From Mariniphaga sp. (GTDB taxonomy: Bacteria > Bacteroidota > Bacteroidia > Bacteroidales > Prolixibacteraceae): a stretch of DNA of 64,000 nucleotides. A model generated the notes under the pieces. It saw only the letters and a program-made list of their open reading frames with translations. It had not been told where the DNA came from and searched no databases. The stretch spans positions 1 to 64,000 of the forward strand of contig JAHYIT010000004.1 of assembly GCA_019429205.1 (NCBI GenBank), in the 5' to 3' direction. Position 1 is the stretch's first letter; every line of letters begins with the position of its first letter. Made by a program: the position numbers and the translations under genes. Positions 3,706 to 47,276 of the stretch are shown one piece after another.

Positions 3706-4533
3706 ATGTCTTTTACAACAGCCGACGTAGTAAAACTGAGAAAAGTAACCGGTGCAGGGATGATGGATTGCAAAAGCGCCCTGGCCGATGCCGATGGTAA
3801 TTTCGACAGAGCGCTCGATATTATCCGCGAAAAAGGAAAATTAGTTGCCAGCAAACGTGCCGACAGGGATGCCACCGAAGGTGCAGTTCTGGCTAAAACA
3901 ACTGAAGATAAAAAGCTTGGTGCGCTGGTCGTATTGAACTGCGAAACCGACTTTGTAGCAAAAAATGAAAATTTTGTAGCTTTTGCTGATAACATTTTGA
4001 ATGTGGCACTGGCTCAAAAACCAGAAAATCTGGATGCTTTAAAAAGCCTCAAACTTGACAGCAGAACAATTGAAGCTCAGGTAACCGAGCAAACCGGTGT
4101 TATTGGCGAAAAACTCGATCTTTCCTACTACGGAAAAATTGAAGCTGAAACAATGGTAAGTTACATTCACCCCGGTAACAAACTGGCCACTTTAGTTGGT
4201 TTCAGTAAAGCCGGCGTTGACGAACAGGTTGCCAAAGATATCGCTATGCAGGTTGCTGCCATGTCGCCTGTTTCGGTTGATACTGATTCCATTCCCCAGG
4301 ATGTTATCAATAAAGAGCTGGAAATTGCCAAAGAAAAATTCCGCCAGGAAGGCAAACCCGAAGCTATGCTCGATAAAATTGCACAGGGTGCGCTTCAGAA
4401 ATGGTACAAAGAGGTTACTCTTTTGAACCAGGCTTTTATTAAAAACGGAAAAATGACTGTGAAAGATTACCTGGCACAATACGACAAAGATTTGAAAGTT
4501 ACAGGGTTTGAGCGTTTCGCGCTTGACGGGTAA
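3706..4533 (+). CDS. tsf: Elongation factor Ts
   Basis: VVKLRKVTGAGMMDCKSAL motif; location after rpsB. Confidence 0.97.
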   Translation: MSFTTADVVKLRKVTGAGMMDCKSALADADGNFDRALDIIREKGKLVASKRADRDATEGAVLAKTTEDKKLGALVVLNCETDFVAKNENFVAFADNILNVALAQKPENLDALKSLKLDSRTIEAQVTEQTGVIGEKLDLSYYGKIEAETMVSYIHPGNKLATLVGFSKAGVDEQVAKDIAMQVAAMSPVSVDTDSIPQDVINKELEIAKEKFRQEGKPEAMLDKIAQGALQKWYKEVTLLNQAFIKNGKMTVKDYLAQYDKDLKVTGFERFALDG

Positions 4534-43412: not shown

Positions 43413-46400
43413 TTACTCCTGTTTCGAAACAACTATACCAATAGAAACGTCTTTGTCAATTTCAACTTCTTTGGCTGTTGCATCTCTTAGTTCGTCAACA
43501 AGTTGAAGGTCAACGGCCAAAGTTTGGGCGCAAATATAGTTTTTAAAATTTAATACCGCATCATTAATTGCATCGTGCTTTTGAATAATCAGCTGAATGC
43601 GGTCGGTAACCTCAAATCCACTTTCTTTCCTCAGGTTCTGGATTTTATTGATGAATTCGCGCGCATAACCTTCCTGTTTCAGCTCTTCGGTTACATCAAT
43701 ATCCAGCGCAATAGTCAATTGCCCTTCGGAGGCTACAGTCCAGCAGGGAATGTCTTCCGTCTGAACTTCAACATCATCTTTTGTGATGGCAATTTTCTGA
43801 TCCCCGGCATCAATTTCCACAGTGCCTGCATTTTCCAGTTCAGCAATTTTGTGCTGATCGAACTGTACGATTGCGCCCGCTATTTGTTTCATTAGTTTCC
43901 CGTATTTGGGCCCCAGCGTTTTAAAATTGGGTTTTATTTTCTTTTTGATGATACCTTCGGTATCGGTCAGAAACTCCACTTCTTTCACATTCACTTCGGT
44001 TAGAATGATGTCTTTAACCGCCTCGAACTGCTCACGGAAATGCGGATTGAGCACCGGCACCATAATTTTGGCCAGCGGTTGCCTCACTTTCAGCTTTTCT
44101 TTTCGGCGCAGGGCCAGAATCATGGAAGAAGCCTTTTGGGCGATTCCCATTTTTTCTTCCAGGTCTTTGTCTATCAACTTTTCATCGTAACCCGGAAAAT
44201 CAGCGAGATGAACGCTCTGGTCGATTTCTTTACCTGTGGCTTTATTCAAGTCGGCAAAAAGCAAGTCGGCATAGAACGGGGCTATGGGCGCCATCAGTTT
44301 GGCCACGGTTACCAAACTGGTGTAAAGTGTTTGGTAGGCCGAAATTTTATCGGTGGAATATTCTCCTCCCCAGTATCTCTTCCGGCTGAGGCGCACAAAC
44401 CAGTTGCTCAGGTTTTCGGTTACAAATTCTGAAATGGCCCGGCCCGCGCGGGTCGGCTCGTAGTTTTCGTAACTTTCGCCCACTACTTTTACCAATGAGT
44501 TCAGCAGCGAGATAATCCAGCGGTCGAGTTCGGGACGCTGTTCAACCGGAATTTCTTCTTCGGCATACCTGAAATTGTCCACATTGGCATAAAGCGCAAA
44601 GAAATTGTATGTATTGTAAAGTGTTCCGAAGAATTTCCGTTTCATTTCTTCCACACCTTCCACATCAAATTTCAGGTTGTCCCAGGGTTGGGCGTTGGTA
44701 ATCATATACCAGCGCAGCGGGTCAGAACCGTATTTGTCGATGGTGTAGAACGGATCGACGGCGTTGCCCAGGCGTTTCGACATTTTATTGCCGCTTTTGT
44801 CGAGCACCAGTCCGTTGGAAATGATGTTTTTAAACGAAACCGAATCGCTCACCATGGTGGCAATGGCGTGCAATGTAAAAAACCATCCGCGGGTCTGGTC
44901 CACACCTTCGGCAATAAAATCGGCAGGAAACAGACGAGCCCCACCCCATCCCTCCCCCAGGGGGAGGGTGTTCAGGGCAGTGGTTATTTTGTAAAGTACT
45001 CCTTCAATATTATTGATAATTTCTTCATTTTTAAACCGAAGGACTTCAAAACCCACTTGATTCAGAATCTCAGTTCTCTGTTTATCCGAAATATCCTTGT
45101 CAGGTAATGAATGATAACCTCCATCCACCTCGATAATTAAATGTTTTTTCAGACAAACAAAATCAACAATAAACTGATCAATAATATGTTGTCTGCGAAA
45201 CTTATAATTTGCTAAACCACGATTTTTGAGATTCTGCCACAAAAACTTTTCTGCCTCTGTTGGATTTTCTTTTTGTTTTTTGGCAAGTTCTTTTAACAAA
45301 CCATAACTCGAATCTCTTGCAGTCTGCCATTTCGGAGTTGCGGATTCTCCCCCTTTGGGGGAGTTAGAGGGGGCTCCTGTTTCAAATGGATAATGATGTT
45401 GGGCATAAGGCATGGCACCCGAATCGAACCAAACATCAATCAAATCGGGTTCGCGGAACATTTTTTTGCCTGAAGGGGAAACCAGTACCACATTGTCAAT
45501 GTAAGGTTTGTGCAGGTCGATATTTTCAAAGTTCTCTTTTGAGTTATTTCCGGGTTTGAAATTCTTGTATGGATTTTCGATCATGAACCCGGCTCCAATT
45601 GCTTTTTCAATTTCCGCCATCAGCTCTTCTGTGGAACCAATGCATATTTCTTCCGAGCCATCTTCGGTGCGCCAAATGGGCAGCGGTGTTCCCCAGAACC
45701 GTGAACGGCTGAGGTTCCAGTCCACCAGATTTTCGAGCCAGTTGCCGAACCGGCCGGTGCCGGTTGACTGCGGTTTCCAGTTGATTGTGTTGTTCAGTTC
45801 CACCATGCGTTCTTTTACCGCTGTGGTTTTAATGAACCACGAATCGAGCGGATAATAAAGCACCGGCTTGTCAGTTCTCCAGCAGTGGGGATAACTGTGT
45901 GTAAGCTTTTCAATTTTGAATGCTTTGTTATCCAGCTTCAGCATCACCGAAATATCCACATCCACGGTGGGGTCGTCTTCGGTCAGTTTTTCGCTGTAAT
46001 CGTTTTTCACATACCGTCCCGAAAAATCGTGGTATTTTTCAGTATTTACGTATTTTTTTACAAAAGATTCGGCCATTTCCGAGATAAGAAAAAAGCGTCC
46101 TTTGCGGTCAACCAGCGCCTGTGTTTTGCCGTCGGTATCTTCCACAATGAGGGGCGAAATTCCGTTTTGTTTGGCCACACGGTCGTCGTCGGCGCCAAAT
46201 GTCGGGGCAATATGCACAATGCCGGTACCGTCTTCAATGGTTACAAAATCGCCGGTAATAACTTCAAATGCTTTTCCTTTGGGTTTTACCCACTCAATGA
46301 GTTGTTCGTACTGAACGCCGGCCAGTTCTTCGCCCGCATATTCAGCCAGCACTTTATACGGAATATTTTTATCCCCCTGGTTATATTCGTCAACCGGGGC

Positions 46401-47276
46401 ATTTTCACTTTCAACATTAAAATAAACGTGCAGCAGGTCTTTGGCCAAAATCAGTGTGACCGGAATTCCTGTGTAAGGATTAAAGGTTTTGATTTTTACA
46501 TACCGGATTTGTGGCCCTACTGCCAGTGCCGTATTCGACGGCAGTGTCCATGGTGTGGTGGTCCAGGCCAGAAAATAGAGGTCGGTGTCCACATTTTCAA
46601 ACAGAAACTTCGAGCGCTCGTTGCGGATGGCTTTAAACTGTGCCACGATGGTGGTGTCTTTCACATCGCGGTAGCAACCCGGCTGGTTTAGTTCGTGCGA
46701 ACTCAAACCCGTTCCGGCAGCAGGCGAATAGGGCTGAATGGTATAGCCTTTGTATAATAGTCCCTTGTTGTAAATTTGCTTCAGTAACCACCAGACGGTT
46801 TCAATGTAACGACTGTCGTAAGTGATGTAGGGGTCGTCCATGTTCACCCAGTAGCCCATAATGCGGGTGAGTTCTTCCCATTCGCGGGTATATTTCATTA
46901 CCTCCTTGCGGCAGGCGGCATTGTATTCTTCAACCGAAATTTTCTTTCCGATGTCTTCCTTTGTAATGTTCAGCGATTTTTCCACGCTCAGTTCCACCGG
47001 CAAACCGTGGGTGTCCCAGCCGGCTTTGCGGTGCACGCGGTAACCTTTCATGGTTTTGTAGCGGCAGAAAATATCCTTAATGGCACGGGCCATCACGTGA
47101 TGAATTCCCGGCATCCCGTTGGCCGAGGGCGGTCCTTCGTAAAACACAAAGGTTGGGTGGCCCTCGCGGGTGGAAATGCTTTTATGAAACGTGTCGTCTT
47201 CTTCCCATCGTTTTAATACCTCTTTATTGATCTGAGAGAGGTCTAATTGTTTGTATTCCTGAAATTTATTCACCAT
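43413..47276 (-). CDS. ileS: Isoleucyl-tRNA synthetase interrupted in-frame by a DUF559 domain
   Basis: HIGH-type signature region FYEGPPSANGMPGIHH; KMSKRLGN; host sequence WFDSGAMPYAQHHYPFE and LFPADFIAEGVDQTRGWFF separated by about 149 extra residues. Confidence 0.95.
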   Translation of the reverse strand: MVNKFQEYKQLDLSQINKEVLKRWEEDDTFHKSISTREGHPTFVFYEGPPSANGMPGIHHVMARAIKDIFCRYKTMKGYRVHRKAGWDTHGLPVELSVEKSLNITKEDIGKKISVEEYNAACRKEVMKYTREWEELTRIMGYWVNMDDPYITYDSRYIETVWWLLKQIYNKGLLYKGYTIQPYSPAAGTGLSSHELNQPGCYRDVKDTTIVAQFKAIRNERSKFLFENVDTDLYFLAWTTTPWTLPSNTALAVGPQIRYVKIKTFNPYTGIPVTLILAKDLLHVYFNVESENAPVDEYNQGDKNIPYKVLAEYAGEELAGVQYEQLIEWVKPKGKAFEVITGDFVTIEDGTGIVHIAPTFGADDDRVAKQNGISPLIVEDTDGKTQALVDRKGRFFLISEMAESFVKKYVNTEKYHDFSGRYVKNDYSEKLTEDDPTVDVDISVMLKLDNKAFKIEKLTHSYPHCWRTDKPVLYYPLDSWFIKTTAVKERMVELNNTINWKPQSTGTGRFGNWLENLVDWNLSRSRFWGTPLPIWRTEDGSEEICIGSTEELMAEIEKAIGAGFMIENPYKNFKPGNNSKENFENIDLHKPYIDNVVLVSPSGKKMFREPDLIDVWFDSGAMPYAQHHYPFETGAPSNSPKGGESATPKWQTARDSSYGLLKELAKKQKENPTEAEKFLWQNLKNRGLANYKFRRQHIIDQFIVDFVCLKKHLIIEVDGGYHSLPDKDISDKQRTEILNQVGFEVLRFKNEEIINNIEGVLYKITTALNTLPLGEGWGGARLFPADFIAEGVDQTRGWFFTLHAIATMVSDSVSFKNIISNGLVLDKSGNKMSKRLGNAVDPFYTIDKYGSDPLRWYMITNAQPWDNLKFDVEGVEEMKRKFFGTLYNTYNFFALYANVDNFRYAEEEIPVEQRPELDRWIISLLNSLVKVVGESYENYEPTRAGRAISEFVTENLSNWFVRLSRKRYWGGEYSTDKISAYQTLYTSLVTVAKLMAPIAPFYADLLFADLNKATGKEIDQSVHLADFPGYDEKLIDKDLEEKMGIAQKASSMILALRRKEKLKVRQPLAKIMVPVLNPHFREQFEAVKDIILTEVNVKEVEFLTDTEGIIKKKIKPNFKTLGPKYGKLMKQIAGAIVQFDQHKIAELENAGTVEIDAGDQKIAITKDDVEVQTEDIPCWTVASEGQLTIALDIDVTEELKQEGYAREFINKIQNLRKESGFEVTDRIQLIIQKHDAINDAVLNFKNYICAQTLAVDLQLVDELRDATAKEVEIDKDVSIGIVVSKQE
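44936..45376 (-). mobile_element. 441-bp in-frame insertion in ileS: DUF559 endonuclease-like domain bounded by GC-rich inverted terminal repeats with internal palindromes
   Basis: ENPTEAEKFLWQNLKNRGLANYKFRRQHIIDQFIVDFVCLKKHLIIEVDGGYHSL...EILNQVGFEVLRFKNEEIINNIEGVL. Ends GAGCCCCaccccatCCCTCCCCCAGGGGGAGGG and, reverse-complemented, GAGCCCCctctaaCTCCCCCAAAGGGGGAG. Confidence 0.8.

Follow-up and report, generated by a model that had tools for sequence, protein, structure and literature searches.

In the isoleucyl-tRNA synthetase gene (ileS) of Mariniphaga sp. (Prolixibacteraceae), we observed a DUF559 nuclease encoded in the reading frame of its host and enclosed by short GC-rich hairpins, which is most likely a hairpin-bounded, translated and unspliced homing element; its cleavage, its homing and the lack of splicing are inferred and have not been shown. 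The DNA analysed, in the following called the window, comprises positions 1 to 64,000 of contig JAHYIT010000004.1 (assembly GCA_019429205.1). An earlier note, made from the sequence alone, had proposed a mobile, translated-through and homing-like element rather than an intein or intron, and this remains the best-supported reading, with experimental proof of homing and of absent splicing still lacking.

The anatomy of the insert is shown directly. All features described here lie on the minus strand; the host gene (43413..47276) encodes 1287 aa and is uninterrupted through the element, in which the host frame contains zero stop codons. Compared with empty alleles, the whole foreign stretch between HYPFE and FPADFIAEGVDQTRGWF (44931..45380) amounts to 150 residues. 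Within it, the element (44936..45376, 441 bp or 147 codons) is delimited by a 7-bp outer inverted repeat, with GAGCCCC as its 5' copy (45370..45376) and GGGGCTC as its 3' copy (44936..44942). A hairpin scan placed the 5' end hairpin, CTCCCCC(AAA)GGGGGAG, at 45347..45363 and the 3' end hairpin, CCCTCCCCC-T-GGGGGAGGG, at 44950..44968, inside the stretch coding for LPLGEGWGGA; the window contains no more than three GC-rich hairpins with a short loop and a stem of 7 bp or longer, these two among them, so that they are not explained by chance. The pre-domain segment PKWQTARDSSYGLLKELAKKQ (45294..45346) is conserved and common to in-frame inserts of different host genes, and is followed by the DUF559 or EDxHD-type nuclease domain with its invariant E..D..H..D residues (PF04480, 44973..45293, E 8.6e-36; at the protein level IleRS residues 662-768, E 1.3e-34). 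The earlier note had claimed a stop-free insertion of exactly this extent, with GAGCCCC ends, within ileS, as well as its bounding by hairpins and a complete-looking DUF559 domain, all of which held; its estimate of about 149 extra residues is refined to 150, which displace a native loop of 8-13 residues.

The nuclease itself is well preserved. Glu84, Asp86 and Asp99 are kept in 68 of the 68 aligned inserts and His90 in 67 of them, and together we take these residues to be the EDxHD active-site motif. Profile searches with the insert matched the structures 3hrl (E 2e-32) and 3r3p (E 7e-8), and the modelled insert also matched 3r3p, the catalytic domain of I-Bth0305I (Foldseek E 4.8e-5), as well as 3hrl; the pLDDT of this model is above 90 across most of the core and below 50 at the hairpin-coded ends. 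Fold and active site thus match the homing endonuclease I-Bth0305I, and in most pairs a dN/dS of about 0.1 indicates purifying selection on the domain; cleavage itself is inferred. It should be noted that the domain comprises only about 110 aa and no separate DNA-binding region for reading a long target was recognised, and that no cleavage or homing assay of any DUF559 insert was found in the open-licence literature searched. Structure prediction of the insert within IleRS, as the earlier note had suggested, yielded a model (residues 1-965, pLDDT 60) too poor to judge whether the enzyme tolerates its insert, and it was excluded as evidence; tolerance therefore is inferred only.

In empty IleRS alleles of the same genus and family, HYPFE is followed by 8 to 13 variable residues and then by FPADFIAEGVDQTRGWF, and a short loop of this native type was found in 48 of 58 further readable nuclease-less alleles. 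In carriers the order is HYPF(E)-insert-(L)FPADF, without the native loop; the insertion therefore replaces the loop in a site-specific manner, and no target-site duplication, the hallmark of DDE-type insertion sequences and MITEs, was found at the ileS site. The empty sites in valS (KLYYLKYKIEGEDEFVTIATTRPET) and in recG (FGVAQRAKLWQKNDLIPPHVLVMTATPIPR, taken from the Mariniphaga genome that contains the window) gave a comparable picture, carriers lacking a few loop residues in both cases. Several nuclease-less ileS alleles still bear traces of a former insert: those of G102, G105 and G107 retain in-frame remnants of both element ends (NPHLLSSGQEQGEASL, NPHLLSPERGGASL and NSLPLKENRGGASL, respectively), and those of G140 and G162 are likely scarred as well. 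In the insert of G095, the catalytic DG..H segment has been lost with the reading frame intact. A cycle of gain, decay and loss is expected of homing elements; the scars, which are shown, and the decay in G095 fit such a cycle, the cycle itself being an inference.

The distribution of the insert is patchy and incongruent with that of its host. Three genomes of the same genus (G001-G003), with IleRS 81-92% identical to that of the window, are empty at the site. In the IleRS host tree carriers are scattered and at least nine changes between presence and absence are required, and well-supported branches enforce seven of these. In AU tests the insert alignment is incompatible with the host topology (p 1e-54 for DNA, 6e-46 for amino acids), also when the deviating lineages G076, G077 and G095 are left out (1.8e-6), and the host alignment in turn rejects the insert topology. 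Recent horizontal transfer into one and the same site is evident from close pairs of carriers: between Psychroflexus planctonicus and P. salis the dS of the ileS insert is 0.08 and that of the host flanks 1.22, in two Tenacibaculum recG genes the insert reaches 0.23 and the host 1.00, and two valS pairs give 0.43 against 1.92 and 0.56 against 2.01. In sliding comparisons the block of high identity coincides with the element; it spills tens of bp into the flank in Psychroflexus and stops exactly at the hairpins in valS. Long co-conversion tracts were not detectable in the ileS of the window, whose relatives are too divergent. Insert and host identities correlate moderately (rho 0.48), and part of the insert history therefore is vertical.

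These data bear on the possibility that DUF559 is a vertically inherited and domesticated accessory domain, serving for example DNA or RNA binding or synthetase regulation, that was lost many times. The strong purifying selection on the domain and the moderate correlation of insert and host identities would speak in its favour. However, this reading is very unlikely and already contradicted, since the insert phylogeny rejects that of the host, insert dS falls far below host-gene dS in several pairs, the same domain occurs in unrelated enzymes, genus mates are empty and G095 tolerates the loss of its catalytic segment. The earlier note had named vertical carriage of the domain by close relatives as a finding that would refute it, and the empty genus mates rule this out.

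The insert is not confined to one gene or genus. Searches with the insert profile found it at one exact IleRS site in 15 of the approximately 132 genomes of the family with detectable ileS, and a family-level profile search found a sister insert at a single valS site in about 18 genomes. Scanning of species genomes and of a phylum sample revealed in-frame copies spread across Bacteroidota, with 144 copies in long host ORFs after identical domains had been dropped, and almost all of the closest matches within the family keep the nuclease in frame with the host. Among the hosts are synthetases (IleRS at two sites, ValRS, LeuRS at three sites or more) and other enzymes (RecG, MetH at two sites, IcmF, UvrA, RecD2-like and AddA/RecB-like proteins), as well as restriction-modification, aminotransferase-like and SpoIID proteins; DUF559 also occurs at the C-termini of HisD and TrpF and at the N-terminus of HemF. 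Host names rest on NCBIfam for L189, L191, L194, L196, L204 and L247 and on sequence motifs for the rest. In-frame copies in housekeeping genes of other Bacteroidota are what the earlier note had suggested looking for. Copies recur at fixed sites adjoining conserved motifs, and one metH (L142) and one leuS (L177) each carry two different in-frame DUF559 inserts at separate sites. The insert tree clusters by host site (22 changes, compared with 73 when labels are shuffled), and the IleRS, ValRS and LeuRS sites each have been taken by more than one nuclease lineage, the latter in a quick tree with few columns and several weak branches. A caveat is that the insertion sites are variable loops, and structural permissiveness alone could possibly explain their repeated use.

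Considering that the Mariniphaga assembly consists of 305 contigs, one might suspect an artefact of assembly or annotation, or a gene copy that has been inactivated. This can be all but excluded: the carriers include many cultured type strains, and therefore do not reflect an assembly artefact, the same site was found independently in single-contig genomes, and the 99.2% complete Mariniphaga genome contains one ileS only, the remaining search matches being its ValRS and LeuRS-type paralogues plus two further genes with DUF559. A second intact ileS, which according to the earlier note would have made the interrupted copy dispensable, hence does not exist in this genome. One exception to the rule of an open frame is the valS insert of G090 (L106, about 4070-4520), which is out of frame at GC homopolymer runs in a single-contig genome; the frame shifts may be sequencing indels, or this valS may truly be split.

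Could the insert be removed from the RNA or from the protein, as a new type of intron or intein? The sites, located close to the active site in essential genes, do resemble those of inteins and introns, and base pairing between the outer GAGCCCC and GGGGCTC ends is conceivable at the RNA level. On the other hand, the open host frame of the ileS insert is not accompanied by any splicing signature. No Hint domain was found in the insert-bearing IleRS, for which Pfam gives only DUF559/REase and synthetase domains; constant intein-type junction residues were not found either, the junction residues of the inserts being variable; and a search for group I and group II intron RNA gave zero Rfam matches at E values up to 1. 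Clean splicing moreover would give a host protein with a shortened loop and not the original one, as carriers have lost the native loop. Together with the host frame kept in nearly all of the closest copies and with scars that remain in frame, this renders a spliced element very unlikely. Our preferred reading, a homing element that stays unspliced in IleRS, is inferred from these absences.

The hairpins are a regular property of the family. Among 120 in-frame copies, 77% of the 5' ends and 80% of the 3' ends have a perfect, short-looped stem of 6 bp or more, a share that drops to 10-16% in controls; the stems comprise 45-50 different sequences. This support rests on frequency versus controls only; the stems were picked by complementarity, so that covariation scoring would be circular. 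Each end bears one hairpin in addition to the 7-bp outer inverted repeat, and, scored as inverted repeats, ends belonging to one copy are slightly more alike than ends taken from different copies (mean score 12.6 versus 10.8, p 0.001). Pro, Gly and Ser are abundant at the element ends, and it is inferred that these hairpin-coded ends act as flexible linkers.

Such ends raise the possibility of a hairpin-ended transposable element, in which DUF559 would act on the terminal hairpins, as in REP/RAYT or IS200/IS605 systems, and recurrence would reflect tolerant loops and not target recognition. The hairpins that flank about 80% of copies on both sides, with 45-50 stem sequences among them, the slight excess of likeness between ends of the same copy and the unrelated host genes are in line with this idea. 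It nevertheless seems unlikely to us: most genomes hold a single copy at a given site, target-site duplication is absent and the native loop lost, the inserts cluster strongly by host site, and DUF559 is not known to act as a transposase. The 20-mer of the 3' hairpin (up to three mismatches allowed) furthermore has no second occurrence in the Mariniphaga genome. Abundant REP-like ends in this genome, which we considered, are therefore rejected, and the suggestion of the earlier note that further hairpin ends might be found there failed. Returning to the homing element, the proposed mechanism is weakest at the hairpins, which classical homing does not need; possibly they aid occasional moves to new sites, a function that is inferred only, or they may merely persist as tolerated linker code.

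Under the homing model, an EDxHD (I-Bth0305I-like) DUF559 nuclease would be encoded in the host reading frame between two short GC-rich hairpins, the hairpins would be translated as flexible linkers rich in Pro, Gly and Ser, and the ribosome would yield one long IleRS with the nuclease as an added surface domain. The nuclease is predicted to recognise and cut the empty allele of its own host gene at a conserved site in ileS, and sister lineages would target valS, leuS, recG, metH and other genes. Repair off the occupied copy would then insert the element, displace the short loop and sometimes co-convert a few tens of bases; both cleavage of the empty allele and copying by repair are inferences. 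Once the site is filled, the nuclease may decay in frame and subsequently be deleted, leaving a short in-frame scar. A bolder reading, towards which we lean only slightly, regards these inserts as a distinct, phylum-wide class of hairpin-bounded homing nucleases without splicing, which would spread through essential genes of Bacteroidota by means of self-encoded, tolerable linkers, in a cycle of gain, decay and scar, with lineages specialised on individual enzymes.

The kind of nuclease and the homing-type distribution are already known. EDxHD homing endonucleases such as I-Bth0305I, described in group I introns of phage (PMC3943268), share with the insert the catalytic fold, residues of the E-D-H-D type and a patchy horizontal spread into conserved genes; the ileS element, however, has no splicing element, and its nuclease forms part of the host protein, joined to it on either side by linkers that the hairpins encode. 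Arsenault et al. (2025, PMC11855218) described the ShiLan domain and hidden HNH insertions, along with a solitary LAGLIDADG, in DNA methylases of phage; these likewise represent homing-like insertion without a stop in the host frame and without detectable intein or intron. There, however, the HNH is out of frame in a dispensable phage methylase and hairpin ends are unreported, whereas the DUF559 element contains an in-frame EDxHD nuclease and resides in essential cellular enzymes, at many hosts and sites. In nrdA of phage Aeh1, the unspliced homing endonuclease gene mobE occupies a critical region and the enzyme remains functional, but mobE splits nrdA into separate polypeptides (PMC2988022), in contrast to the one continuous polypeptide of IleRS with its insert. 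Rickettsia palindromic elements (Ogata et al. 2000, in PMC2229807) consist of palindromic DNA that is read through in frame as part of conserved proteins, and their carrier protein Gmk was shown to be translated and active (PMC2229807), a precedent for tolerated palindromic inserts; unlike the DUF559 element, with its nuclease gene, site specificity and ends unrepeated in the genome, they measure 105-146 bp, are repeated in the genome and lack a nuclease (PMC2229807). Inteins with homing endonucleases are similarly in frame, near active-site motifs and of homing-type distribution; the DUF559 element differs by the absence of a splicing domain and junction residues, by its total of about 147 codons and by the native loop that is not restored.

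For an in-frame, unspliced arrangement of this kind, bounded by hairpins and placed in essential cellular genes, the open-licence literature searched gave no description, and no paper in it that mentions DUF559 addresses in-frame inserts by title or abstract. This agrees with the earlier note, which knew of no formal description; an earlier one elsewhere remains possible. Introns or inteins had been regarded as necessary for homing elements in essential genes to leave the host unharmed, and the unspliced cases in the literature we examined are a few phage genes. Should our reading be true, a common bacterial phylum would hold many homing nucleases, built permanently into IleRS, ValRS, LeuRS, RecG, MetH and other proteins as additional domains; this would explain many odd DUF559 fusions in annotated proteins and provide natural, evolution-tested insertion sites in essential enzymes. 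Cultured Psychroflexus, Tenacibaculum and Marinilabilia would then offer a tractable system relating splicing-dependent to splicing-free homing elements.

Some further observations concern relatives of the insert. A phage reservoir was considered and rejected, phage records holding only distant DUF559 relatives; the best IMG/VR match (L279) is a valS that carries this insertion too and likely represents bacterial DNA at a provirus edge. In this record and in the valS of G090 (L106), hairpin-type peptides (APKSPEGG, APLSPPEGG) follow HQIPxYYI at a second valS site; those of G090 enclose no nuclease and may be solo hairpins or scars. In L263-L266, DUF559 is fused in frame upstream of an apparent coproporphyrinogen oxidase (HemF), at the N-terminus, with the hairpin-type linker PPAPPSKGDS. 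Related DUF559 domains with hairpin-type linkers also occur in apparent restriction-modification proteins (type IIG, HsdR, HsdM; L103, L041, L098, L099, L250-L262). The Mariniphaga genome holds two more, free-standing DUF559 genes (L002, L003), 41-46% identical to the insert and located near contig ends. Other free-standing DUF559 genes (L050, L051, and L048 with L022) form near-identical pairs 1.4-7.5 kb apart, which may reflect recent duplication or spread.
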